DNA from: Micrococcaceae bacterium Sec5.1
Lineage (GTDB): Bacteria > Actinomycetota > Actinomycetes > Actinomycetales > Micrococcaceae
Length of the DNA: 64,000 bases
Assembly: GCA_039636795.1 (NCBI GenBank)
Contig: CP143430.1
Location: 682,001 to 746,000 of the forward strand
Reading direction: 5' to 3'
Position numbers and translations under genes: made by a program. Positions 17,969-64,000 of the stretch are shown piece by piece. The notes beneath the pieces are model-generated. The model worked only from the letters and a program-made list of their open reading frames with translations. It ran no database searches and had not been told where the DNA came from. How positions within the stretch are numbered: the stretch's first letter is position 1; every line of letters starts with the position of its first letter.

Positions 17969-18053
17969 GGAGAATTCGCCTAGCGGCCTATGGCGCACGC
18001 CTGGAACGCGTGTTGGGTTAACGCCCTCGGGGGTTCAAATCCCCCATTCTCCG
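17969..18053 (+). tRNA. tRNA-Ser (anticodon GGA)
   Basis: 85 nt, a class II tRNA. The acceptor GGAGAAT pairs with ATTCTCC and a G discriminator follows. The anticodon stem CACGC/GCGTG encloses loop CTGGAAC with anticodon GGA (reads UCC and UCU). A long variable arm and a T arm GGGGGTTCAAATCCCCC are present. CCA is not encoded. A strong terminator follows within 6 bp. No integrated element is visible at its 3' end. Confidence 0.96.
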
Positions 18054-18058
18054 CGTTT

Positions 18059-51355: not shown

Positions 51356-51832
51356 CTACGCCGCCACCGTCTTCAGATAATTCCGGATCCCATCGACCAC
51401 TAGCTCATGGTCCTCATCAGAGCTCAATCCGGCCACGGTAACGGCACCAATAACACCGGCACCGCGCACACGGATCGGGAACGAGCCACCGGCGAGCGTG
51501 TAATCCTCATGGGCAAGCCAGCCGCCTCCCAGAGGGCTGTGCGTGCGGGCGGAGAACTGTTCAGTTAACAAGGCTGTGCTGTGTTCAAAACGCAGCACCG
51601 AGGCAGACTTGCGGCGGATCCACTCCTCTTGGTCGGCCGTGGCTCCGGGCAGGACGCAGCGGAAGAGCACAAGGTTGTGCCGCCGGATATCGATGGCAAC
51701 GCCATAATCGGAAGCGATCGCGTGGTTGGCGATGAGCGAGCCGAGGCGCCAAGCGTCGTGGTGGTCAAAGCTTGCGAAGACGAGTTCTTCCTCTTGCTGG
51801 CGGAGCTCCACAAGGCGGGCAGATTCAGTCAT
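51356..51832 (-). CDS. HbpS/GlcG-type heme-degrading domain protein
   Basis: 158 aa, UPF0303/Haem_degrading family. The core (FDHHDAWRLGSLIANHAIASDYGVAIDI, then GGSFPIRVRGAGVIGAVTVAGLS) is well conserved. Relatives bind or degrade heme or cobalamin, or are small companions of catabolic enzymes. It overlaps the next Gfo/Idh/MocA gene by 4 bp on the same strand, so it belongs to the catabolic island. Confidence 0.85.
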   Translation of the reverse strand: MTESARLVELRQQEEELVFASFDHHDAWRLGSLIANHAIASDYGVAIDIRRHNLVLFRCVLPGATADQEEWIRRKSASVLRFEHSTALLTEQFSARTHSPLGGGWLAHEDYTLAGGSFPIRVRGAGVIGAVTVAGLSSDEDHELVVDGIRNYLKTVAA

Positions 51833-52863
51833 TTCGTTGCACCTTCTTCTGAAACAACAGCATCCGCCGCGTACGACAGCCCGATCTGGCGGCGGATTTC
51901 ATCCATGGCCGCCATGATGGCCACGCTTTCGCTCGGCGGCAGGATGGTGCCAGCGGTCTCACCGGCGCGGATCAGGCGTTCCAGCTCGGCCGCCTGGTAC
52001 TGCATTCCCCGGCTCTTCACGGGCTGCTCGAAACGCTCCACCACCTCGCCATCAACGCGGAAAACGGTGAAGGGCACTTGGTTGTACCAGGTGTGTTCGA
52101 TGTCGATATAGCCCTCTGTACCGATCACCATAGCGCGGTTGGCGCTGGCGGCGTCGAGTTCGCAGTCCACAATGGCCTGTTGCCCGTCGGCGTACTCGAA
52201 GATGGCCGCCGTTTGCCTGTCCACGCCGGTGGCCGACATGGAGGCGCTTGCCCGGATTATGGCAGGCGTACCCAGGATGTCGAAGGCAAAGGAGATCGGG
52301 TAGATGCCCAGGTCCAGCAAAGCTCCGCCGCCCAGGGCGGGATCGTTGAGCCGGTGGGCAGGGTCCTTGGGAAGGCTCTGGTTGTGGCTGGCAACCACCT
52401 TCCGGACCTCGCCGATGGTGCCTTCCTGGATGAGTTCGCGGATGCGCACCATGTGCGGGAGGAAACGCGTCCACATAGCTTCCAAAGCCACAAGGCCTTT
52501 GGACTCGGCCAGGTCCACGATCTCCTGGGCTTGGCGGGCGTTCATCGTGAAGGCCTTCTCCACCAGCACGTGCTTTCCGGCGTTGAGCGCCAAGAGTGCG
52601 TTGGCATGATGGAACGGGTGCGGCGTAGCGATGTAGACCACGTCAACCAGCGGGTCTGCCACCAAGTCCTCGTAACTGCCGTGTGCGGTCATCACGCCGT
52701 GCAGCTCAGCGAAGGCTTTGCTCGACTCCAATGAGCGTGAGCCCACAGCCTGCACGGTAAAGCCGTTCTCTTTCAGGTCCTGCGTCTGGAGTCCGGCAAT
52801 AAATCCTGTGCCGAGGATGCCCCAGCGGATTGTTCCGTCGGAGGTGCCATTGCTGAGGGTCAC
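51829..52863 (-). CDS. Gfo/Idh/MocA family oxidoreductase 1
   Basis: About 344 aa. The NAD(P)-binding Rossmann region starts WGILGTGFIAG and HVLVEKA replaces the usual EKP. The C-terminal alpha/beta domain has GGGALLDLGIYP with the family His/Asp replaced in part (DLGIYPISFAFD). I chose the GTG at 52863 because AAGGA lies eight bases before it; upstream codons run into the neighbouring gene. It may be a dehydrogenase or reductase for a keto-sugar. Confidence 0.88.
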   Translation of the reverse strand: MTLSNGTSDGTIRWGILGTGFIAGLQTQDLKENGFTVQAVGSRSLESSKAFAELHGVMTAHGSYEDLVADPLVDVVYIATPHPFHHANALLALNAGKHVLVEKAFTMNARQAQEIVDLAESKGLVALEAMWTRFLPHMVRIRELIQEGTIGEVRKVVASHNQSLPKDPAHRLNDPALGGGALLDLGIYPISFAFDILGTPAIIRASASMSATGVDRQTAAIFEYADGQQAIVDCELDAASANRAMVIGTEGYIDIEHTWYNQVPFTVFRVDGEVVERFEQPVKSRGMQYQAAELERLIRAGETAGTILPPSESVAIMAAMDEIRRQIGLSYAADAVVSEEGATK

Positions 52864-52867
52864 GTGC

Positions 52868-53767
52868 TTAGTCCTTCGTCGAGTCAGAAAGCGGGTAGGC
52901 CACATACGCAAAACGCCGGGAGTCCGGCGACCAGCTGTTGACGTTGAGGCTACCTTGGCCACCGAAAAGTGGCCATGTATGCAGCGGCGTGGCCCAGTCG
53001 TGTGTAGAAACAAGTACGACGGCGACCGGCAGGTCAGCGGGGTGTCCTACCGTTCCGCTGGGGAACCGGATGTAACTGGCGTACCGGCCATCGGGGGAGA
53101 GATGCGGGAACCAGTCGACTGTTTCGGATTCGAGGAGCCGCTCGAAGCCAGTGCCGTCCACGCGAACCCGGGCGAGCTGGGCGTGACCCGGCGTGGACGA
53201 AAAGGATTCCGTGTTCAGGTAAAGCCATTTCCCATCGGGCGAGTATTCCGGCCCGTCGCAGTGGCCAGCGCCGACATCAAAGCGGCCGACATCCACGCTG
53301 GCGGTAGCGCCGCCGTCGGACGCTGTGGTCATCAGGCGACCTGGCTGCGTGAAGTCTCCCGCTTCGATCCCCACATACGCCAACTCCTTGCCGTCCGGGC
53401 TGACGCCGTGGAGGAAATGGAAGAAGCCGTCGTCCTCGGTGATGCGAGTGACCGGTCCGCCGCCCAGTAAAGCACGGTAGATGTGGCCGTCGTTCGCGGA
53501 GACGAAGATTCCCTGGCCGTCAGGTGTCAGGACGTGGTCGTTGTTCAGGTCCGGGACCCCCGTGAGGGAGATAGGTTCCAGAGAGCCTGCGTCGAGATCG
53601 AAACGCCATAGCTTGCCATCCCCGTTGAGGATGAGTGAGCTTCCGTCGAGGGTCCAGTTGGGCGCTTCGAGAAGGAGGTCGTCGGTGCTGTAAAGCAGCG
53701 CCGACTCCCCGGTGACCGACGCGATCCACACCTCACAGCGCTGGCCGGATTGAAGGGTGCGGATCAC
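52868..53767 (-). CDS. TolB-like beta-propeller protein
   Basis: 299 aa. Repeated WD40-like/PD40 units (SPDGKWLYLNTES, SPDGRYASYIRFP, SPDSRRFAYVAYP, TPDGQGIFVSANDG) suggest a five- to six-bladed propeller. No signal peptide is seen, so it is probably cytoplasmic; relatives include oligogalacturonate lyase-like proteins. Its stop lies 5 bp before the Gfo start, so it is co-transcribed in the island. Start is GTG. Enzyme or carrier role is unknown. Confidence 0.82.
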   Translation of the reverse strand: MIRTLQSGQRCEVWIASVTGESALLYSTDDLLLEAPNWTLDGSSLILNGDGKLWRFDLDAGSLEPISLTGVPDLNNDHVLTPDGQGIFVSANDGHIYRALLGGGPVTRITEDDGFFHFLHGVSPDGKELAYVGIEAGDFTQPGRLMTTASDGGATASVDVGRFDVGAGHCDGPEYSPDGKWLYLNTESFSSTPGHAQLARVRVDGTGFERLLESETVDWFPHLSPDGRYASYIRFPSGTVGHPADLPVAVVLVSTHDWATPLHTWPLFGGQGSLNVNSWSPDSRRFAYVAYPLSDSTKD

Positions 53768-53797
53768 GTCGGTCCTTTCCTGGTCCTTGCTGCTGAA

Positions 53798-54799
53798 CTA
53801 GTCCTTGCTGCTGAAGGCGGCGTCGAAGCTGGTTTGGGAGGCGGGGAAGTCGTATCTTTTGAGGGCGGCGAGGGCTTCGGGGGCGCCGTGGAGGCGGTCC
53901 ATGCCGGCGTCTTCCCATTCGATGCTGATGGGGCCGGTGTAGCCGATGGCGGTAAGGGCCCGGAAGGAGGATTCCCAGGGCACGTCTCCGCGTCCGGCGG
54001 AAACGAAGTCCCAGCCACGGCGCGGATCTCCCCAGGGCAGGTGGGAGCCCATCACGGTGTTGCGGCCGGTGGGCCGGAGCTTGGTGTCCTTGCAGTCCAC
54101 GTGGTAGATGCGGTCCTTGAAGTCCCAGATGAAGGAGACGGGGTCGATGCCTTGCCACATGAAGTGGGAGGGGTCCCAGTTCAGGCCGAACGTGGGCCGG
54201 TGGCCGATGGCTTCCAGGGTCCGGACGGTGGTCCAGTAGTCGTAGGCGATCTCGGAAGGGTGGACTTCGTGGGCGAAGCGGACCCCGCATTCATCGAACA
54301 CGTCCAGGATGGGGTTCCACCGGTCCGCGAAGTCCTGGTAGCCGGCGTCGATGACTTTTTCGGGGACGGGCGGGAACATGGCGACGTACTGCCAGATGGA
54401 GGACCCGGTGAACCCGACCACGGTGTCGACCCCCAATGCGCGGGCGAGCCGGGCGGTGTGTTTCATTTCTTCGGCGGCGCGTTGACGGACGCCTTCGGGG
54501 TCCCCGTCACCCCACACGCGGGACCCGACGATTGCTTCGTGGCGGAAGTCGATGGGGTCATCGCACACGGCCTGGCCTTTGAGGTGGTTGGAGATGGCCC
54601 AGACCTTCAGGTTGTACTTTTCAAGGACGGCGAGTTTGGACTCGACGTAGCCGGGTTCGTCCCAGCGCCAGGCGTCCAGGTGGTCTCCGGAGACGGCGAT
54701 TTCCAGGCCGTCGTAGCCCCAGCCCGAGGCAAGGCGGGCGACTTCCTCGAAGGGGAGGTCGGCCCACTGGCCGGTGAACAAGGTGTACGGGCGGGGCAT
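53798..54799 (-). CDS. Sugar phosphate isomerase/epimerase family protein A
   Basis: 333 aa, xylose-isomerase-like TIM barrel. The metal ligands look complete: Glu in HEVHPSEIAYD, Asp in NWDPSHFMW, His in IYHVDCKD and Glu in SIEWEDAGMD. It differs clearly from the two shorter barrels in the island. Barrels of this kind act as epimerases or as 3-keto-glycoside eliminases and hydratases. It lies one base before the LGDH-like dehydrogenase stop, with AAGGAG before its ATG. Confidence 0.88.
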   Translation of the reverse strand: MPRPYTLFTGQWADLPFEEVARLASGWGYDGLEIAVSGDHLDAWRWDEPGYVESKLAVLEKYNLKVWAISNHLKGQAVCDDPIDFRHEAIVGSRVWGDGDPEGVRQRAAEEMKHTARLARALGVDTVVGFTGSSIWQYVAMFPPVPEKVIDAGYQDFADRWNPILDVFDECGVRFAHEVHPSEIAYDYWTTVRTLEAIGHRPTFGLNWDPSHFMWQGIDPVSFIWDFKDRIYHVDCKDTKLRPTGRNTVMGSHLPWGDPRRGWDFVSAGRGDVPWESSFRALTAIGYTGPISIEWEDAGMDRLHGAPEALAALKRYDFPASQTSFDAAFSSKD

Positions 54800-54800
54800 G

Positions 54801-56015
54801 TCAGGCTCCTTCAGTGGTGGTGGTGGTGTTTAGGGAGGTGGTGTGAAGCTGGATCAGTGAGCTTTTGGCCGCCGCGGATTCTTCGATGGCAGCGAGCACA
54901 TGCTGGACGTTCAGCCCTTCTTCGAACGACGGCGAGGGCTGGCTGCCGTCCCGAATGGCCAGCAGGAAGTCCCGGATCTGGTGCGTGAAGGTGTGTTCCC
55001 AGCCGATGATGTGACCCTGCGGCCACCACGCTTCGAGGTAGGGGTGCTCGGGTTCGTTGACGAGGATCCGGCGGAAGCCCTGCTCGCGGACTGGTGCGGT
55101 CGCGTCCAGGAAGCCGAGCTCGTTCAGCGCTTCGAGGTCGAACAGGATGGTGCCTTTGTCTCCGTAGATTTCGAGCTTGAGGGAGTTCTTCTGGCCGGTC
55201 GCTACCCGGCTGACTTCCAGCGAGGCGATTGCTCCGGAGGCGAGTGTCAACGTGGCCCAGGCGGCGTCGTCGACCGTTACGTCTTCGGGGCCATTCGGCC
55301 CCGGGCGGCGATTCACGAAGGTGTGCAGGCGGCCCGTGACCTCGGTGACGCCGTCACCCAGGAGGAACAGGACTTGGTCGATGGCGTGCGAGGCGATGTC
55401 GCCCAGCGCGCCGGATCCGGCGGTTTCCTTGCGGAGCCGCCAGGTCATGGGGGATTCGGCGTCGGAGAGCCAGTCCTGCAGGTAGGCGGCCCGGACGTGC
55501 CGGACGGTGCCGAGGCGGCCTTCGGCGATCAGTTCGCGTGCAAGCGCCAACGCGGGGACGCGGCGGTAGTTGAAACCGATCATCGACTGCACGCCCTTGG
55601 CGCGGCCTGAGGCGGCGGCTGCAGTCATGGCTTCGGCCTCGGCGATCGTATTCGCCAGCGGCTTTTCCACCAGGACGTGTTTGCCGGCCTCGAGGGCGGC
55701 GATGGCGATTTCGGCGTGCATCCAGCCCGGGGCGCAGATATCGACGATGTGGATGTCGTCACGTTCAATGACCGAGCGCCAGTCCGTGGCGGACTCGGCC
55801 CAGCCGTACTTGGCGGCGGCCTCGGCTACCAGGGAGGCGTCCCGGCCGACGAGCACTTTTTGCTCGAAGGCCGGGACGTCGAAGAAGCTGGCCACATTCC
55901 GCCACGCGTTCGAGTGGGCTTTACCCATGAACGCGTAGCCGATCGCGGCGACCCCCAATGGGCGGGTAGGTTGCTGGGTGCCCTGGCTCTGGTCAGTGTG
56001 GGCGGGGGTGCTCAT
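54801..56015 (-). CDS. Gfo/Idh/MocA family oxidoreductase 2, levoglucosan dehydrogenase-like
   Basis: 404 aa. AAIGYAFMGKAHSNAWRNV at the start, VLVEKPLA, and then YLQDWLSDAESPMTWRLRK with GSGALGDIASHAID are close to what I remember of the actinobacterial levoglucosan dehydrogenase, which oxidises C3-OH of a sugar ring with NAD. The catalytic Lys of EKP and the GD..H..D set are present. It may start a 3-keto pathway in this island. The end has five ACC codons in a row. Confidence 0.85.
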   Translation of the reverse strand: MSTPAHTDQSQGTQQPTRPLGVAAIGYAFMGKAHSNAWRNVASFFDVPAFEQKVLVGRDASLVAEAAAKYGWAESATDWRSVIERDDIHIVDICAPGWMHAEIAIAALEAGKHVLVEKPLANTIAEAEAMTAAAASGRAKGVQSMIGFNYRRVPALALARELIAEGRLGTVRHVRAAYLQDWLSDAESPMTWRLRKETAGSGALGDIASHAIDQVLFLLGDGVTEVTGRLHTFVNRRPGPNGPEDVTVDDAAWATLTLASGAIASLEVSRVATGQKNSLKLEIYGDKGTILFDLEALNELGFLDATAPVREQGFRRILVNEPEHPYLEAWWPQGHIIGWEHTFTHQIRDFLLAIRDGSQPSPSFEEGLNVQHVLAAIEESAAAKSSLIQLHTTSLNTTTTTEGA

Positions 56016-56033
56016 GGTGGGGTTCCTCGTTAC

Positions 56034-57173
56034 TTACGGAGTTGCGGTTGCCTGGAGTGTTGCGGTTTCCGGCGCCCAGTCCTCCGGGACTGCTTCAGAG
56101 GCGGGCGCGTTGCTGGTGACGTCTACGAACGAGCCCGATTCCACGGATTCGGAAATCGAGACCATCGTGTCCAGCACGTGGTAGGCCAGTTCGCCGGTGG
56201 CGCGGTGCGGGGCGCCTGAACGGAGGGCACGGGCCATGTCCAGCACGCCCAGGCCCCGCCCGTTGGCCGGTCCGGTGGCCGGGATGATCTCGGGTTCTTC
56301 CGCACCTGGACGCCAGAGCTTGAGGTCGCCGTCGAAATAGTTCGGGTCCGGCAGCGAGAGCGTGGCTTCGGAGCCGGTGATTTCCACGAACCCCATCCGC
56401 AGGCGCGGGGACTCGAACGAGAACACGCTGTGCGAGGACGCACCGCTTTCGAACTGCGCCATCGCGGAGACGTGGGTGGGGACCTCGACGGCGAATTCCT
56501 CCCCGGCCTTCGGACCGGAACCAATGATCCGGGTCGCTTTCGCGGAGGAGCCGACGGCGGCCACCTTACGGACCGAGCCGAACGTCTGGATGAGGGCCGT
56601 GAGGTAGTACGGGCCCATGTCGAACAACGGGCCGGCGCCGTCCTGAAACAAGAACGCCGGGTTCGGGTGCCAGGATTCCGGGCCCGGCGTCTGGAAGGTG
56701 GTCATTCCCGTCAACGGGGTGCCGATGTCCCCGCGCTCGATGATCCTGCGCGCGGTCTGCAAGCCGGCCCCCAGGAACGTATCAGGCGCTGTGCCAAGCC
56801 GCGTCCCCGCAGCGTCGGCTGCTTTCAGCAGGCCAAGGCCGGACTCGCGGTCCAGGGAGAATGGCTTCTCCGTCCAGACGTGCTTGCCGGCGTTGACTGC
56901 GGCCGTGGCAACCTCGACGTGCGCCGCCGGGATGGTCAGGTTCACGATGATCTCGACGTCGGGATGGTTCAGTGCCAGCTCGGGCGCACCGAATTCGGGG
57001 ATCCCGTATTCCTTGGCCCGCGCCGCGGCGGCCTCGACGAAGAGGTCTGCGATCACCAGGACCTTCACGTCCGGAAAGACCGTAAGGTTATCCAGATACT
57101 GCTTGCTGATATTGCCCGCACCGATGACGGCGACGTCAACGGGACCCTTGCGGGTTGAAGGTGTGAAACTCAT
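56034..57173 (-). CDS. Gfo/Idh/MocA family oxidoreductase 3 (module copy 1)
   Basis: 379 aa. The Rossmann start is VIGAGNISKQYLDNL, with EKPFS and LFDMGPYYLTALIQTFG further on. It is a close paralogue of the protein at 61293-62450 through nearly all its length. The ATG overlaps the stop of the TIM-barrel gene (57170-57946) by 4 bp, exactly as in the second copy. It may reduce or oxidise a keto-sugar intermediate. Confidence 0.88.
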   Translation of the reverse strand: MSFTPSTRKGPVDVAVIGAGNISKQYLDNLTVFPDVKVLVIADLFVEAAAARAKEYGIPEFGAPELALNHPDVEIIVNLTIPAAHVEVATAAVNAGKHVWTEKPFSLDRESGLGLLKAADAAGTRLGTAPDTFLGAGLQTARRIIERGDIGTPLTGMTTFQTPGPESWHPNPAFLFQDGAGPLFDMGPYYLTALIQTFGSVRKVAAVGSSAKATRIIGSGPKAGEEFAVEVPTHVSAMAQFESGASSHSVFSFESPRLRMGFVEITGSEATLSLPDPNYFDGDLKLWRPGAEEPEIIPATGPANGRGLGVLDMARALRSGAPHRATGELAYHVLDTMVSISESVESGSFVDVTSNAPASEAVPEDWAPETATLQATATP

Positions 57174-57946
57174 GCCCCTGCCTCCTCGGAAATAGTTCCC
57201 TCGGCTGCCTGAACGCTTGCCGCAGCCGTCAAATACCTCAGGCTCTCGGTGATGCCCTCAAAAATATCGCCGGAGTAGTCGTCGAACTCCACCACGCCAA
57301 CTTCCAGGGACTTGGCTGCTGAGATGATGTCTAGGACCGGGATGCTTCCCTGGCCGGCGGGCTGTTGGGCCTTGGTATCCGTGGTGGCCGGTCCGTCCTT
57401 GATGTGGATGAGCTTCACCCGGTCGCCCAGGCGCTCCAGCAGCGAAACCGGATCCTGGCCACCGACAGCTGCCCAATACGTATCCACCTCGAGGACGAGT
57501 TCCGGATCCAGCAGTCCCTCGAAGTACTCCAGTGCGGTCTGGCCCTCAATGGTGGACTCCAGCTCCCACGCATGGTTGTGGTAGCCAACGCGAATGCCGT
57601 ACTCGGCGCCCTTCTTCGCTGCCGCGTTCAGCGCTGCGGCGGTGGACTGGATAGTCCCGGCGTCCTGCCAGTGCTCCGCAGGAAGGAAAGGATCAATCAC
57701 GGTGGTGATGCCCAGTTCCTTGGCCGCAGCGAAAATCTCTTCCTGGTCCTGGCTCAAAAGGGGCGCGTGCCCGGACGGAGCGGTGAGGCCGTTCTCCCTC
57801 AAAGCAGCGCCGAGTTCTTGGGCGGTGGCCACGAAGTTGTACGGTTCCACCTGCGTGAAGCCGATCTCCGCGACTCTCCTGATGGTCCCAGACAGGTCTT
57901 CCTGGATGGCGTTGCGAACGGTGTAGAGCTGAAGTGAATACGACAT
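57170..57946 (-). CDS. Sugar phosphate isomerase/epimerase family protein B (module copy 1)
   Basis: 258 aa, TIM barrel. SYSLQLYTVRNAI at the start; metal ligands in VGYHNHAWELE, LEVDTYWAAVGG, LIHIKDG and VVEFDDY. It closely resembles the protein at 62447-63187. It could be an isomerase, eliminase or hydratase of a keto-sugar. GAAGG lies before the ATG; the next gene is translationally coupled. Confidence 0.88.
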   Translation of the reverse strand: MSYSLQLYTVRNAIQEDLSGTIRRVAEIGFTQVEPYNFVATAQELGAALRENGLTAPSGHAPLLSQDQEEIFAAAKELGITTVIDPFLPAEHWQDAGTIQSTAAALNAAAKKGAEYGIRVGYHNHAWELESTIEGQTALEYFEGLLDPELVLEVDTYWAAVGGQDPVSLLERLGDRVKLIHIKDGPATTDTKAQQPAGQGSIPVLDIISAAKSLEVGVVEFDDYSGDIFEGITESLRYLTAAASVQAAEGTISEEAGA

Positions 57947-57971
57947 GGATGCCTTCTCAGTGATCGTCCGG

Positions 57972-58002
57972 TGTTGCTCGTACTTGGCTGTTGCTCGTAC
58001 TT
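57972..58002. repeat. 14-bp direct repeat upstream of module copy 1
   Basis: TGTTGCTCGTACTT occurs at 57972-57985 and 57989-58002 (17-bp period), between the permease stop and the TIM-barrel gene. It could be a regulator site or a slippage product. Confidence 0.8.
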
Positions 58003-58012
58003 AACAGTGAAC

Positions 58013-58852
58013 CTACTTAACCGCTCCTGACGACAGCCCTGCCACCAAGTGTTTTTGCACCAGGATGAATCCGATCAAAACGGGAAGGCTGACCACAACG
58101 GAAGCGGCCATGAGCTGGTTCCAAAACACGTCTGATTCACTGGCGTAGGCCTTGAGCCCCAGGGACAGTGTTTTTGTGGATTCGTTGGTCAGCACGGATG
58201 CGAACAAAACCTCGCCCCATGCGGAGATGAAGGAATACACGGCAACTGCGATGATGCCCGGCTTGGCAACAGGGAGGATCACACGGAACAGTGCTCCCAT
58301 CCTCCCGGTGCCATCGATCATCGAAGCCTCTTCCAGTTCCTTGGGTATCGAGGCGAAGTAGCCGCTCAGCATCCAGATGGCGAAGGGCAACGTGAACGTC
58401 ATGTACGTGATGATCAGCCCGAGGTAGGAGCCCTGCAGCTGCAAGCCGGTCATGTTGCGGATCTGCGTGAAGATCAGGTACAGCGGCAGGAGGAACAGGA
58501 TGCCAGGGAACATCTGGGTGGAGAGGACAGTCAGGCTGAAGGCGCGCTTTCCCTTGAACTGCAAGCGCGCAATGGCGTAGGCGGCCAGGACTGCGACTGT
58601 CACTGAGCACGCTGTTGCGCAGACGGTGATGATGAGGCTGTTCTGGAAGTACTTGGCCAGCGGAACCGTGGTCCAGATATCCAGGTACGGTGAGGCGGTG
58701 ATTTCCCGGGGAATCCACTGGAAGAGCCCTGAGACGTCCTTGAGGGGTTTCAATGAGGTGGAGACCACTACGAAGAGCGGGATCGCCACCCAGAGGGACA
58801 GGATGGTCAGGACTATGGTCCTGAGGATCCGGAAGTTGCGTGTCTCAATCAT
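58013..58852 (-). CDS. ABC sugar importer permease (MalG-like), island
   Basis: 279 aa, six helices, with the EAA loop [22 protein letters not shown]. The ATG at 58852 overlaps the stop of the first permease by 8 bp, with AAGGGAG before it; an ATG 48 bp upstream falls in the neighbour gene. No ATPase gene is nearby. Confidence 0.95.
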
Positions 58853-59858
58853 TGTCGGCTCCCTTGGGCAGCACCATGCGGATGTAGAAAGCGGAGGCAA
58901 TGAACAGGGCGATCAGCAGCAGTACGCTCATTGCGCCGCCCAGACCGAAGTTCCAACTGCCGAAGGAGTTTTGGTAGATCAGTGGGGAAATAAGGGTGGC
59001 TTCCTTGGGAGACGTGGCTCCGAACAGGACGAACGGGACGTTGAACTGGTTGAAGGTCCACAGCGACATGACCATGAGCAGCACCCCGTTGGCCGGGCGG
59101 ACCATGGGCAACGTGATGCGACGGAACTGCTGCCAGAGCGTAGCGCCGTCAATGGCCGCTGCCTCATAGACGTCAGTGGGAACGTTCTGCAGGGCAGCCA
59201 TCAGCATGAGGAACGCGAAGGGCCACAACTGCCACACGTTCACAATCACCATGGCTCCGAAGGAGTTCTGGCCCAGCAGCCAGAAGGGGCGTTCGTCGCC
59301 GAAGAGGTGAAGGGTGTCCACCAGGATCTGGTTCACGGCACCATCGCGCTGGTTGAACATGAAAGCCCACGCGATGGTTCCGACATATGCCGGGAGTGCG
59401 TACGGGACCAGGAAGAACGTGCGAAGAAGTGCGCGTCCCCTGAAGTTGGAGGACAGGAAAACCGCGCCTGCCATGCCGAGCACCCAGGAGAAGCCGACCA
59501 CCAGGATGGTGTACCCCAGCGTGCGGCCAACCGTGCTGAAGAAGGCCTGACCGATGGTGCTGTCCGGGTTGAGGCCGTTGATGAAGTTCTGCAGCCCTAC
59601 GAACGGCGCGTTGAGCCAGTTGGTGAGGTTGAGCTGCGTCAGGGAGATGAACGCGATCCAGATGCCAAGGAGCATCGGTCCGATGTGGATCAGGAGCTCA
59701 AGGATCGCGGCCGGAAGGATCAAGCCGTAGGGGAGGAATGAGCGAAGCCGTTTACGTACCGGCGGTGTGCTTGCTGCCCGTTTTTGGCCGGGCTCGGGAT
59801 CAACGGCAGCGGGGCTGCCTGCAGCGGCCGGGCCGCTGTCCAATGCTGAATGGGACAT
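58845..59858 (-). CDS. ABC sugar importer permease (MalF-like), island
   Basis: 337 aa. A polar N-terminus of about 45 residues precedes six helices; the EAA loop is YEAAAIDGATLWQQFRRITLP. The ATG at 59858 has AAAGGAG six bases before it; a longer frame reaches 59912 but crosses the hairpin at 59875-59910. Confidence 0.94.
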   Translation of the reverse strand: MSHSALDSGPAAAGSPAAVDPEPGQKRAASTPPVRKRLRSFLPYGLILPAAILELLIHIGPMLLGIWIAFISLTQLNLTNWLNAPFVGLQNFINGLNPDSTIGQAFFSTVGRTLGYTILVVGFSWVLGMAGAVFLSSNFRGRALLRTFFLVPYALPAYVGTIAWAFMFNQRDGAVNQILVDTLHLFGDERPFWLLGQNSFGAMVIVNVWQLWPFAFLMLMAALQNVPTDVYEAAAIDGATLWQQFRRITLPMVRPANGVLLMVMSLWTFNQFNVPFVLFGATSPKEATLISPLIYQNSFGSWNFGLGGAMSVLLLIALFIASAFYIRMVLPKGADND

Positions 59859-59874
59859 GGAAACTCCTTTGCCG

Positions 59875-59910
59875 GAGCGGGGACGCCACGTTGTGGTGGC
59901 GTCCCCGCTC
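59875..59910 (-). terminator. Intercistronic hairpin between binding-protein and permease genes
   Basis: A perfect 15-bp stem (59875-59889 with 59896-59910) with a 6-nt loop, no strong T tract. It probably stabilises or partly ends the transcript, giving more binding protein than permease. Confidence 0.8.
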
Positions 59911-59921
59911 ATGAGGCTTGG

Positions 59922-61250
59922 TTACTGGGCCGCGGCCATCTGGTTGTTGGCGTCCTTGAGGGCCGCCCGGATGTCGTCTTCGGAAACAGTTCCCGTTGCC
60001 GCCTTGGCAAAGAGGTTCTTGATTGCCGTGCCGGTGAGGGTCTCCATCTGACCCTCTTTCGCGATCAGCGGCATGGGCAGGGAGTGGTTGGCCAGGGCGT
60101 CATTCTTGGCCTTCACTTCTTCGGTCTGGAAGGCAGGATCGCTCGAAGCCGCGGTGACTACGGGCAGCGAGGAGTAGGCCTTGTTGAGGGCAATCTGCTC
60201 TTCGTCGCTGGTCAGGAACGCGGCAAGCTTGATGGCGTTTGCCTTGTTGTCGCTGTTCTTGAAGACGCTGAGGTTGATACCGGCCACGTGGCTCTGTGTG
60301 CCACGCTCACCGGTAGCTCCGGCGGTCATCATGGGGATCGGGGCTACGCCCCAGTCCTTGAAGTCGCGCGCTGCGAAGTTCTTCAGCGGGCTCTGGTCAA
60401 ACATCATGGCGGCCTTGCCGTTGATGAGGTTGTCCACCTTTTGGCTGCCCTGACTCAGTTCAGCGTCCGACGGCGACATCACCTTGTCCGTGGCCATCAA
60501 GTCCACGAACTGCTTGACTCCCTCAACCTGGGGATCGCTGTCGAAGGTGGGCTTTCCGCCAGCGTCGAACAAGGTGCCGCCGTTTTGCAGGCCACGAACG
60601 AACGCTTGGTGCGAGTTGGCGGAAACGGATGCTCCGGCTGCGGTGAAGCCCCACTGATCAGGCTTGCCGTCCCCGTTGGTGTCCTTGGTGAGCTTCTTGG
60701 CGTCAGCCACAAACTCGTCCCAGGTTGTGGGGGCCTTCTCGATGCCGGCTTCCTTGAACAGCTTGGTGTTGTAATACATGTTGTAGGCCAAACCGTAGAG
60801 CGGCACAGACGTCGGGGTCTTGCCTTCCGCGCCACCTGTCGACCAGCTGGTCTTCAGGAAGCGGTCCTTGCCGCCAACGGCCTCCAGCAGTTCACCTTCC
60901 ACGGGCTCAAAAGCGCCCGTCTCCTGCAGGGTCACGGCCCACGTGTTTCCGATGTTGAGGACGTCGGGGCCGTCGCCACTTGTGACTGCTGTAAGAATGC
61001 GGTTGTAGAGGTCTGTCCAGCTGATGACTTCCAGCTGTACCTTTACTCCGGTTTTTTCCGTAAAGCGATCCAGGGTGGGCTTCAGCTTGGCCGCGGTGTC
61101 GTCCAGGCTGTTGCCTTGATCCGATGCCCAGTAGGTGATGGTGTCGCTGCTTGCTTGTGGGCTGCTACCGCCGCCACCGCAGGCGCTGAGACCCAGTGCC
61201 AAGGCTGCCGTCGCGGCAACCGCCGATAGGACTTTCAGGGGATTCTTCAT
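59922..61250 (-). CDS. ABC sugar importer, substrate-binding lipoprotein, island
   Basis: 442 aa, family 1 solute-binding lipoprotein: hydrophobic signal (VLSAVAATAALALGLSACG) with lipobox LSAC. Binding of a mono- or oligosaccharide or glycoside is expected; residues of the site cannot be read. It belongs with the two permeases downstream. Confidence 0.95.
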   Translation of the reverse strand: MKNPLKVLSAVAATAALALGLSACGGGGSSPQASSDTITYWASDQGNSLDDTAAKLKPTLDRFTEKTGVKVQLEVISWTDLYNRILTAVTSGDGPDVLNIGNTWAVTLQETGAFEPVEGELLEAVGGKDRFLKTSWSTGGAEGKTPTSVPLYGLAYNMYYNTKLFKEAGIEKAPTTWDEFVADAKKLTKDTNGDGKPDQWGFTAAGASVSANSHQAFVRGLQNGGTLFDAGGKPTFDSDPQVEGVKQFVDLMATDKVMSPSDAELSQGSQKVDNLINGKAAMMFDQSPLKNFAARDFKDWGVAPIPMMTAGATGERGTQSHVAGINLSVFKNSDNKANAIKLAAFLTSDEEQIALNKAYSSLPVVTAASSDPAFQTEEVKAKNDALANHSLPMPLIAKEGQMETLTGTAIKNLFAKAATGTVSEDDIRAALKDANNQMAAAQ

Positions 61251-61292
61251 GATGCTCCGGTTTTCTCGTCGTCGAGCTGGTGCTGGCTGAAA

Positions 61293-62450
61293 CTAGGCTG
61301 AAAGGGTTGCTGCCGTGGGGTCCCAATCCTCGGGTAGGGCTGGAACCTGGGCGGCGGAGCTTTCCACATCCACGAAGGCGCGGTTGTCGATTGACTCTGC
61401 GATGGAGGCCATGGTGTCCAGGATGTGGAACGCAAGTTCACCCTGGGCGCGGTGTGGCCGGCCTTCACGGATGGCGCGGGCCATTTCCAGGACGCCCGCG
61501 CCACGGCTGGCAGTTGAGCCAATTGAAGGGACGGTTGTCCAATCGTCGGAACCGAGCGCGCAAATCCTGATGTCGCCGTCGAAGTTGTTCGGGTCCGGCA
61601 AAGCGATGGTGGCCTCGGAACCCGTGATCTCCACGAACCCTGCGCGCTTGAGCGGGGAATCGAAGCTGAAGATGCTCTGGGCAGACTCACCGTTCTCGAA
61701 CTCCAGGATGGAGCTGACGTGCGTAGGGACCGTGACGTCGAACGTCTCGCCTGCCTTGGGACCCGAGCCGATCACGCGTGTTTCGCGGGACTTCGAACCG
61801 AAAGCGGCTACCTTGCGGATGCTGCCGAAGGTCTGCACGAGCGTGGTCAGGTAGTAGGGGCCGATGTCGAACAGGGGACCCGCGCCGTCCTGGAACAGGA
61901 ATGCGGGGTTCGGGTGCCAGGATTCCGGGCCCGGGGACTGCATCAAGGTCAGTGCTGTCAGGGGAGTGCCGATGTCGCCGCGTTCAATCATCCGGCGGGC
62001 AGTTTGGAGGCCGGCGCCGAGGAACGTGTCCGGTGCGCAACCCAGCCTGAGGCCCGCTGCGTCCGCGGCCTTTAGCAAGCCCAAGCCACTTTCGCGGTCC
62101 AAGGAGAAGGGCTTTTCGCTCCAGACGTGCTTGCCTGCGTTGACAGCCTGCGTGGCAACTTCCACGTGGGCAGCGGGGATGGTCAGGTTGATGACAATCT
62201 CCACCTCGGGGTGGCCGAGGACAGCGTCGATGCCACCGTGCACGGGGATGCCGTACTCGTTGGCTCGGGTGGCTGCGGCCTCTTCGAACAAGTCACCGAT
62301 CGCCACAACGCGAACATCGGGGAAGCTTGTGAGGTTGTCGAGGTACTGCTTGCTGATGACACCTGCGCCGATGATGCCGACGCCAACGGGCCCTGAACCT
62401 AAGGGGGTTGACATCAGAGAACCAAAGGCCGCTCCTGCTGCGTTGCTCAT
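61293..62450 (-). CDS. Gfo/Idh/MocA family oxidoreductase 4 (module copy 2)
   Basis: 385 aa. Starts after a short extension with VGIIGAGVISKQYLDNL; EKPFS and LFDIGPYYLTTLVQTFG follow. It is a paralogue of the protein at 56034-57173, with the same motifs in the same order. The ATG overlaps the stop of its TIM-barrel partner by 4 bp; an internal ATG at 62414 is less likely because of that coupling. Confidence 0.88.
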   Translation of the reverse strand: MSNAAGAAFGSLMSTPLGSGPVGVGIIGAGVISKQYLDNLTSFPDVRVVAIGDLFEEAAATRANEYGIPVHGGIDAVLGHPEVEIVINLTIPAAHVEVATQAVNAGKHVWSEKPFSLDRESGLGLLKAADAAGLRLGCAPDTFLGAGLQTARRMIERGDIGTPLTALTLMQSPGPESWHPNPAFLFQDGAGPLFDIGPYYLTTLVQTFGSIRKVAAFGSKSRETRVIGSGPKAGETFDVTVPTHVSSILEFENGESAQSIFSFDSPLKRAGFVEITGSEATIALPDPNNFDGDIRICALGSDDWTTVPSIGSTASRGAGVLEMARAIREGRPHRAQGELAFHILDTMASIAESIDNRAFVDVESSAAQVPALPEDWDPTAATLSA

Positions 62451-63187
62451 GCGGACACCTTCCCAGCGCTGAGGTAGTTGTAGCTGTCTTCCACGGCGTC
62501 GAACATGTCGCCTTGGAAGTCGTCCAGTTCCACGACCGCTGCTTCAAGTGATCCGGCAGCGTTCAAGACGTCCCAGATAGGCATCTGACCGGCACCAACG
62601 GCGAGCTGGCTCGACGGATCGGGGGTTACGGGACCGTCCTTGATGTGGATGAACTTGACCCGATCACCAAGCCGGGCCAGGAGTTCGGCGGGATTCTGAC
62701 CACCGACTGCAGCCCAGTACGTGTCCAATTCAAGGACGACCTCGGGGTTGAGGTGGTCGGCCAAGTGTTCGATTGCCGTTTTGCCGTCAATGACGGACTC
62801 AACTTCCCACCAGTGGTTGTGATAACCGACGCGGACACCGTATTCGGATCCCTTGGCGGCAGCCGCGTTGAGCTGTTCCGCGGTTGCTTTGATGTCTTCG
62901 ATCGTGTTCCAGCGCTCGATCGGGACATGCGGGTCAATAACAGTTCCGATGCCCAAGTGCTTTGCAGCAGCAAAGATTGCGTCCTGGTCATCGCTGAGCA
63001 AAGGAGCGTGGCCGGACGGACCGGTGAGGTTGTTCTCCGTCAATGCCTGCTTGAGTTCTTCGGCCTTGGCAACGAAACGGTATGGCTCAACCATGGTGAA
63101 GCCGATCTCGGCCAAGCGCTGGATGGTTCCCGCCAGATCCTCTTCAAGGGCCTTTCGGACCGTGTAGAGCTGGATCGAATATGACAC
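62447..63187 (-). CDS. Sugar phosphate isomerase/epimerase family protein C (module copy 2)
   Basis: 246 aa. SYSIQLYTVRKAL at the start, GPSGHAPLLS, VGYHNHWWEVE, LELDTYWAAVGG and FIHIKDGP: the TIM-barrel relative of copy 1. The start is GTG with AGGAG five bases before it. It is the first gene of the minus-strand operon, divergent from the ROK regulator. Confidence 0.88.
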   Translation of the reverse strand: MSYSIQLYTVRKALEEDLAGTIQRLAEIGFTMVEPYRFVAKAEELKQALTENNLTGPSGHAPLLSDDQDAIFAAAKHLGIGTVIDPHVPIERWNTIEDIKATAEQLNAAAAKGSEYGVRVGYHNHWWEVESVIDGKTAIEHLADHLNPEVVLELDTYWAAVGGQNPAELLARLGDRVKFIHIKDGPVTPDPSSQLAVGAGQMPIWDVLNAAGSLEAAVVELDDFQGDMFDAVEDSYNYLSAGKVSA

Positions 63188-63281: not shown

Positions 63282-63307
63282 ACTTTTGCCGAGCGTCAAG
63301 CAAAAGT
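63282..63307. promoter_or_regulatory. Inverted repeat in the island/ROK divergent promoter region
   Basis: ACTTTTGC, ten bases, then GCAAAAGT: perfect 8-bp arms. It lies between the first island gene and the ROK gene, as expected for a ROK operator controlling both. A second AAACTT half-site follows at about 63322. Confidence 0.6.
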
Positions 63308-63370
63308 TGAAATATGGCCGACAAACTTCTGCCGCATGACACGCATAAGCAATCGTGCTTCACTAATGGC

Positions 63371-64000
63371 ATGACCTCAGCACCCGGACACCACGGCGGA
63401 AAAGACGCCCCCGCGCAGGACGCCGGTAACCTTTCACGTGCCGGGGACCTCTTCCAGCTCCTGCGGGACGGCCAAGCCCGGACCCGTGCTGAACTTGCCC
63501 TCACCACAGGACTCGCCCGCTCCACCGTCGCCTCCCGCATTGACGCCCTGATCGGATCCGGCCTCGTAGGGCCCGCCGGGGAGGCCACATCAAGTGGCGG
63601 AAGGCCGCCGTCGCGCTTTGCCTTCAACCCCGCCGCCCGCGTGGTCCTGGCCGTCGACGTCGGAGCGACCCACGTGATTGTGGCCGTCACCGACCTTGGT
63701 GGAAGTGTCCTGGCCGAACGCAGGCTGACGCAGGAAGTCGCCGCGGGTCCTGATGTTGTCCTTGGCCAGGTCATCAACGCCGGACGTGCGCTGCTGACCG
63801 AAGCCGGTCGTGAACTTGGCGACCTCGCCGGCATTGGCATCGGACTGCCCGGCCCCGTGGAACACGCGACCGGACGGCCGGTCAAGCCGCCCATCATGCC
63901 TGGCTGGGACGGATTCGACGTCGTTCCTTATGTCCAGCGCTCGCTGCCGGTTCCCGTGCTGGTGGACAACGACGTCAACATCATGGCGCTCGGCGAACGC
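63371..64000 (+). CDS. ROK family transcriptional regulator (partial)
   Basis: 210 codons to the window edge; the 3' end is missing. An N-terminal winged helix (RTRAELALTTGLARSTVASR) precedes the ROK sugar-kinase-like domain (LAVDVGATHVIVAVTDLGG, then GIGIGLPGPVEH and VLVDNDVN). ROK repressors such as XylR or NagC bind a sugar. It is divergent from the island operon and is its probable local repressor. I see no clear ribosome site before the ATG at 63371. Confidence 0.9.
   Translation, partial: MTSAPGHHGGKDAPAQDAGNLSRAGDLFQLLRDGQARTRAELALTTGLARSTVASRIDALIGSGLVGPAGEATSSGGRPPSRFAFNPAARVVLAVDVGATHVIVAVTDLGGSVLAERRLTQEVAAGPDVVLGQVINAGRALLTEAGRELGDLAGIGIGLPGPVEHATGRPVKPPIMPGWDGFDVVPYVQRSLPVPVLVDNDVNIMALGER

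Follow-up and report, generated by a model that had tools for sequence, protein, structure and literature searches.

What does an operon do in which four genes share one oxidoreductase fold (Gfo/Idh/MocA, here Gfo1 to Gfo4) and three share one xylose-isomerase-like barrel fold (TIM_A to TIM_C), and which of these genes encodes which step? The question is raised by an island at positions 51356-63187 of a 64,000-nucleotide stretch, hereafter the window, of the genome of Micrococcaceae bacterium Sec5.1 (C1:682001-746000 of a one-contig genome of 5,426,886 bp). An earlier note on this DNA had proposed that the island runs a 3-keto-sugar pathway in which no classical glycosidase takes part, and the sequences support that proposal. 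We consider it probable that the island is an operon, controlled by a ROK-family regulator, through which one or several small glycosides are imported and broken down without hydrolysis, with Gfo1 and Gfo2 acting first and Gfo3 last. The pathway class itself, oxidation, elimination, hydration and reduction of a 3-keto-sugar, is well supported by sequence. Our analysis assigns probable steps among the look-alike Gfo and barrel genes and probably corrects the first of them, which the earlier note had given to 54801-56015 (Gfo3).

Organization of the island

The island is a single run of 12 genes on the minus strand, transcribed from 63187 down to 51356, in which neighboring genes overlap by 4 bp or are separated by gaps of at most 66 bp. 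Their order on that strand is TIM_A, Gfo1, solute-binding protein, permease 1, permease 2, TIM_B, Gfo2, Gfo3, TIM_C, PD40, Gfo4 and HbpS-like. Pfam agreed with the earlier note on every fold: four GFO_IDH_MocA proteins, three AP_endonuc_2 barrels, one PD40 propeller, one HbpS-like protein and an importer with one SBP_bac_1 and two BPD_transp_1 proteins. The divergent gene at 63314 is indeed a ROK regulator, and, as the note had also stated, no glycoside-hydrolase Pfam family was matched among the 12 island proteins. The gene content and order of the island, its conservation, its retained active-site residues and its predicted operator are read from the DNA itself. The arrangement is more than chance, because an Arthrobacter sp. 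StoSoilB13 plasmid carries all 13 genes, regulator included, in the identical two-headed order (89-99% identity), and large parts of it occur in other relatives.

Two predicted oxidation-elimination heads

Two pairs of genes make up what we call head A and head B:

62447..63187, minus strand: TIM_A, predicted 3-keto-glycoside beta-eliminase of head A (match to 8bvk, AtOGE, E 5e-18; E34, H60, H123, H125, D155 and H181 align to the AtOGE active site)
61293..62450, minus strand: Gfo1, the ThuB-like Gfo of head A, predicted to act as glycoside 3-dehydrogenase (41-42% identical to the rhizobial and S. meliloti Gfo proteins described below)
57170..57946, minus strand: TIM_B, predicted beta-eliminase of head B (8bvk, E 2e-19; the same six residues as TIM_A)
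56034..57173, minus strand: Gfo2, the ThuB-like Gfo of head B, predicted to have the same activity as Gfo1, with the motif DMGPY

In each head the barrel gene and the Gfo gene share 4 bp, and identity between the heads is 71% for the Gfo proteins and 63% for the barrels. PDB entry 8bvk is the Agrobacterium eliminase AtOGE (PMC10628242). In the alignment, AtOGE residues E39, H66, H132, H134, D163 and H189, catalytic His134 included, are retained in TIM_A and TIM_B, so that both barrels combine the 8bvk match with the six residues, as expected of the AtOGE type. With the barrel encoded next to the genome's own levoglucosan dehydrogenase (LGDH) gene, in contrast, the two share no more than 25-26% identity.

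Over 344-368 residues, Gfo1 and Gfo2 are 41-43% identical to two Gfo proteins of other bacteria: one is rhizobial, and its gene overlaps that of a TIM protein (L008); the other is from S. meliloti, and its gene adjoins genes for a ThuA-domain protein and a ROK protein (L016). All four have the motif D[MI]GPY. Full-length similarity and this motif make Gfo1 and Gfo2 ThuB-like, with L016 not established as the thu operon that has been studied. Because each ThuB-like Gfo gene overlaps a short barrel gene with the six AtOGE residues, the island is best described as two heads with one importer and one tail, and the first oxidation at C3 is more likely performed by Gfo1 and Gfo2 than by Gfo3.

The TIM-Gfo1 pair was also observed next to GH43 and GH3 genes on a Clavibacter plasmid (L009:6460-10056) and a Deinococcus plasmid (L011:4709-9050), and therefore can also serve alongside ordinary glycosidases.

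A predicted shared hydration-reduction tail

The heads are followed by two genes of the predicted tail:

54801..56015, minus strand: Gfo3, predicted 3-keto-glucose reductase of the last step (by its place beside the hydratase type, a subthreshold LGDH model score, the Gfo tree and neighborhoods in relatives)
53798..54799, minus strand: TIM_C, predicted 2-hydroxy-3-keto-glucal hydratase (8ro4, E 1.4e-37 over 311 residues; 2zds, E 7e-167)

The structure 8ro4 is a solved 2-hydroxy-3-keto-glucal hydratase. Two rhizobial homologues share 29% identity with TIM_C, and E178, H180, D209, H212, E294 and E296 are invariant across the five proteins aligned. The solved structure nearest to TIM_C, 2zds, carries the label putative DNA-binding protein, which fits poorly with similarity to a sugar hydratase.

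Gfo3 lies directly upstream of TIM_C, with 1 bp between them, and rhizobial hydratase homologues on two plasmids are each followed by a Gfo gene; identity between Gfo3 and the rhizobial reductase is about 29%. The A. tumefaciens Gfo has been put together with OGE and HYD in a one-pot test for the conversion of 3-keto-phlorizin to glucose, the evidence for HYD being termed preliminary by its authors (PMC10628242). In one family genome (G447, locus L069) Gfo3 is missing and a Gfo of the AtGFO/rhizobial type adjoins the hydratase gene. We place Gfo3 last because it stands beside the hydratase type, as in the Agrobacterium-type operons with a reductase, and because of this swap in L069; that Gfo3 is the last-step reductase seems to us quite probable.

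Every reaction, the order of the steps and the class of substrate are what we infer from these comparisons. The importer, presumably served by an ATPase that is encoded elsewhere and shared, would take up the glycoside, which Gfo1 or Gfo2 would oxidize at C3 with NAD+. TIM_A or TIM_B, with a divalent metal, would then release the aglycone by beta-elimination, leaving 2-hydroxy-3-keto-glucal, which TIM_C may hydrate to 3-keto-glucose. Gfo3 would reduce the latter to glucose with NADH, closing the redox cycle, so that one tail would be fed by two heads. The PD40-Gfo4-HbpS block probably acts on a further 3-keto-sugar step.

Relation to the levoglucosan pathway and other alternatives

The main rival is the reverse order, which starts from the earlier note's assignment: Gfo3, as a relative of LGDH, would perform the first C3 oxidation, and a ThuB-like Gfo would then be the final reductase. 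The genome's own LGDH is 39% identical to Gfo3 and 26% identical to the ThuB-like Gfo proteins, the solved LGDH 6a3f matches Gfo3 with E 3e-85, and similarity cannot fix direction because Gfo dehydrogenases are reversible, all of which weighs for that order and against ours. The note had suggested a comparison with LgdA, which we made with the genome's own LGDH locus and with 6a3f, 8bvk and 8ro4 as references for the pathway's enzymes. Against the LGDH model NF052479 Gfo3 scored 333 bits, under the cut-off of 650, and the true LGDH of this genome is encoded at C1:2615595 (716 bits), about 1.9 Mb from the island. In that region (L001:5453-13934) a TIM gene lies beside the LGDH gene, EgtB/SenA-like and zinc alcohol-dehydrogenase-like genes follow, and 2-3 kb downstream of LGDH are genes for a 310-residue TIM protein and a Gfo 82% identical to Gfo3. 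In a tree of 34 Gfo proteins, for which the program warned of long branches, LGDH among them, this Gfo nests with island-type Gfo3 proteins (99/98), and Gfo3 with it stands apart from LGDH. Gfo3 also adjoins the hydratase type in most loci, and the TIM-Gfo1 pair occurs without Gfo3 in Clavibacter, in Deinococcus and in one family locus. The first oxidation thus probably moves away from 54801-56015, and we regard the note's order as unlikely.

Further points weigh against our own assignment. The first A. tumefaciens dehydrogenase is a 66-kDa GlycDH and no Gfo of the size of Gfo1 or Gfo2 (PMC10628242). The comparison of TIM_A and TIM_B with AtOGE covered six residues, with E233 outside it, and at one position where the rhizobial hydratases have His, TIM_C and the protein of Arthrobacter sp. 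ERGS1:01 have Asp. The grouping of the L069 Gfo with AtGFO has moderate tree support (85/69). The Gfo near the genome's LGDH has a catalytic E-H spacing of 93, and the LgdC residues E95 and H185 imply a spacing of 90 (PMC10066097); because of this difference its identity as LgdC is not proven.

We ruled out the island as a levoglucosan cluster proper, since the true LGDH is elsewhere and Gfo3 falls below the cut-off; the hallmark of that pathway, an LGDH gene beside the barrel genes, is absent from the island. In P. nitroguajacolicus SM1928 a one-head island is present and no LGDH over the cut-off was found in the assembly. The levoglucosan route has been described as LgdA-LgdB1-LgdB2-LgdC (PMC7676230), and Paenarthrobacter strains have been reported with LgdA, LgdB1 and LgdC and without LgdB2 (PMC10066097). 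The present genome has two strong TIM_C-type hydratase matches, TIM_C and C1:1706881 (70%), neither in the LGDH locus, and these genes are candidates for the hydratase that could not be found in levoglucosan-using Paenarthrobacter (PMC10066097). The induced regions in Fig. 3 of that paper could include such an island. A sulfonate-type binding protein gene and an arylsulfatase-like gene were observed just upstream of the LGDH cluster.

A Thu-type route for trehalose or another disaccharide, in which the barrels stand in for ThuA and yield products other than those of beta-elimination, is in our view quite improbable. The Gfo encoded next to a ThuA gene shares 42-43% identity with Gfo1 and Gfo2, and a second cluster in this genome (L002:6031-11938; C1:1705031-1710938) joins permease genes, a Gfo3 type, a hydratase type (70-72% identical to TIM_C), a ThuA-domain gene and a Gfo1 type, both of which would suit such a route. 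The barrels of the island retain the AtOGE residues, however, and L069 has a TIM gene and a ThuA gene in one operon, so one is not necessarily a substitute for the other. That the island is an inositol or plain sugar-isomerase operon is very improbable: across the ten island proteins scanned (all except Gfo1 and TIM_A) the matches were weak, up to 117 bits for IolG (TIGR04380, curated cut-off 355) and 41-44 bits for IolE (TIGR04379, cut-off 290), and the closest solved relatives of the barrels with a named function are 3-keto-sugar enzymes. C-glycoside deglycosidase was rejected as a candidate, DgpA, rather than the barrel subunits, being the protein compared and matching Gfo3 (88 bits) and Gfo1 (44 bits) weakly.

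Regulator and operator

Two features lie between the first gene of the island and the end of the window:

63314..64000, plus strand: ROK-family regulator gene, divergent and running off the window (whole gene L003:2315-3592; PF00480, E 7e-60)
63282..63307, plus strand: predicted 26-bp ROK operator, ACTTTTGCCGAGCGTCAAGCAAAAGT, in the ROK-TIM_A intergenic region

The predicted operator is a single site: no further one was found in the whole genome at up to 3 mismatches. Among the ROK-TIM intergenic regions of 20 short loci from other genomes, the best match had 0-4 mismatches in 19 and 9 mismatches in one (L028); the best match in 50 single-letter shuffles of each region had 6. No operator match was found in L069 either. 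In three loci where the ROK gene lies some kilobases from TIM (L058, L062, L064), an exact match is present in the stretch between the two. With a lone conserved operator, the inducer should be easy to screen for.

Importer

59922..61250, minus strand: sugar-binding lipoprotein (PF01547; best solved relative Lin1841, E 8e-36)
58845..59858, minus strand: importer permease 1 (PF00528; open reading frame opens at 59912, likely start ATG 59858)
58013..58852, minus strand: importer permease 2 (PF00528; open reading frame opens at 58900, likely start ATG 58852)

No importer ATPase gene is present in the 12-gene operon; the best match in the genome to a rhizobial UgpC is at C1:951245 (50% identical). 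Lin1841 is described as binding the beta-1,2-gluco-oligosaccharides Sop3-5 (PMC12369401) and is too distant for a substrate to be named through the binding protein, an approach that we rejected. Elsewhere in the window, a tRNA-Ser (GGA) gene at 17969-18054 was the sole tRNA gene detected.

The PD40 block

52868..53767, minus strand: PD40, propeller of the six-bladed type (Pfam PD40)
51829..52863, minus strand: Gfo4, oxidoreductase of the PD40 block (open reading frame opens at 53013, likely start GTG 52863; 35% identity with the Gfo whose gene adjoins PD40 on a plasmid of Agrobacterium)
51356..51832, minus strand: HbpS-like small protein of the PD40 block (PF03928, E 1e-28; same type beside PD40 elsewhere)

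This block recurs outside the island, at times with a 3-keto-disaccharide hydrolase gene (PF06439), and PF06439 genes in some relatives' operons adjoin the hydratase, PD40, Gfo4 and HbpS types. PF06439 has been linked to 3-keto-disaccharide hydrolysis (PMC9007349). It is possible, and we put it forward tentatively, that PD40 is an unrecognized 3-keto-sugar enzyme (a metal-dependent lyase, hydrolase or isomerase) with Gfo4 and the HbpS-like protein as partners, and that the island is two-headed and two-branched, with interchangeable cleavage modules (TIM eliminase, ThuA, PF06439, propeller) on a shared hydratase-reductase tail. Against this link, in a hand count of the best 80 of 589 PD40 loci, some of which end at contig ends, one of the neighbors sought was present in 16 of 62 loci outside the Micrococcaceae vs 17 of 18 within, family membership being presumed. 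Against it also, among 12 plasmid records with PD40, three (L012, L074 and L075) had none of these neighbors and one (L073) had just a sugar isomerase gene. At E 1e-25, P0003 was detected in 3 genomes, the present one included, out of 296 from the phylum.

Several identities for these proteins were considered and rejected. For a PF06439 gene that might complete the block, the one match over the cut-off in this genome (C1:5098445) sits within a 1225-residue frame. PD40 as an oligogalacturonate lyase had a weak fold match (3c5m, placed 24th by Foldseek with TMq 0.57, behind TolB structures), and 3c5m was not among the 50 matches listed in a further structure comparison. Against the TolB model TIGR02800 PD40 scored 39 bits (cut-off 343); members of its propeller family nevertheless commonly carry the annotation TolB or biopolymer transporter Tol. 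For Gfo4 as an NAD-dependent glycosidase, 8qc2 and 8qc3, which we take to be GH188 sulfoquinovosidases, gave 43 and 34 bits vs 176 for dihydrodiol dehydrogenase.

Conservation in the Micrococcaceae and beyond

TIM_A-type genes were found (E 1e-25 or better) in 69 of 197 family genomes and in 17 of 32 genera. Two close full-length copies occur in the present genome alone among the 69; in one other genome (G393) the second copy is distant (36%), and in another (G398) a single copy is split into two pieces. In 29 short loci from other genomes (L021-L049), a hand count showed the Gfo1 type adjoining TIM in all 29 and a ROK gene in 20. Wider loci, 22 in number and picked mostly from TIM hits, are a non-random set, and 18 of their genomes recur among the short loci or in the same list of hits; in the 21 with TIM, the Gfo1 type was present in 21, Gfo3, hydratase and ROK types in 18 each, PD40 in 10, Gfo4 type in 8, HbpS in 5, ThuA in 3 and PF06439 in 1.

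A compact form is an operon in Arthrobacter sp. ERGS1:01 with ROK and just four types, TIM, Gfo1, Gfo3 and hydratase, and on a Rhizobium plasmid the TIM-Gfo1 pair adjoins an importer and a hydratase-Gfo pair. Likely parents of the two-headed form are seen in relatives that have head A with this importer (L050) or head B with another importer (L064). A second StoSoilB13 record (NZ_AP024648.1:98198-100104) has a further TIM-Gfo1 pair, 59% and 68% identical to TIM_A and Gfo1; because this strain carries both the island and the extra pair on plasmid records, TIM-Gfo1 modules sit on large plasmids.

Comparison with known systems

We recognized no publication describing this gene set in the open-licence literature. 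The levoglucosan pathway (PMC7676230; PMC10066097) uses the same two folds in the same four-step logic, whereas the island lacks LGDH and has two heads, the PD40 block and a ROK operator. The Agrobacterium/Rhizobium glycoside operon with AtOGE, AtHYD and a Gfo reductase (PMC10628242) shares with the island the six eliminase residues, a hydratase homologue and the placing of the hydratase beside a Gfo; differences lie in the first dehydrogenase, GlycDH there and a ThuB-like Gfo here, and in the low identity of Gfo3 to the rhizobial reductase. With the ThuA/ThuB-type locus of S. meliloti (L016) the island shares a similar first Gfo, the ROK regulator and the importer, an ATP-binding cassette (ABC) system, but that locus has ThuA in place of the barrel, and neither a hydratase nor Gfo3 is present in the L016 stretch. 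The routes with PF06439 (PMC9007349) are approached through relatives whose PF06439 operons have the hydratase, PD40, Gfo4 and HbpS types, although the island itself has no PF06439 gene. Non-hydrolytic breakdown of glycosides would in this way extend to a gene set common in a soil family, given the barrel counts above. The chemistry is known from other bacteria, and what is probably new is the combination of genes, in which the front end is doubled and a propeller protein is added.

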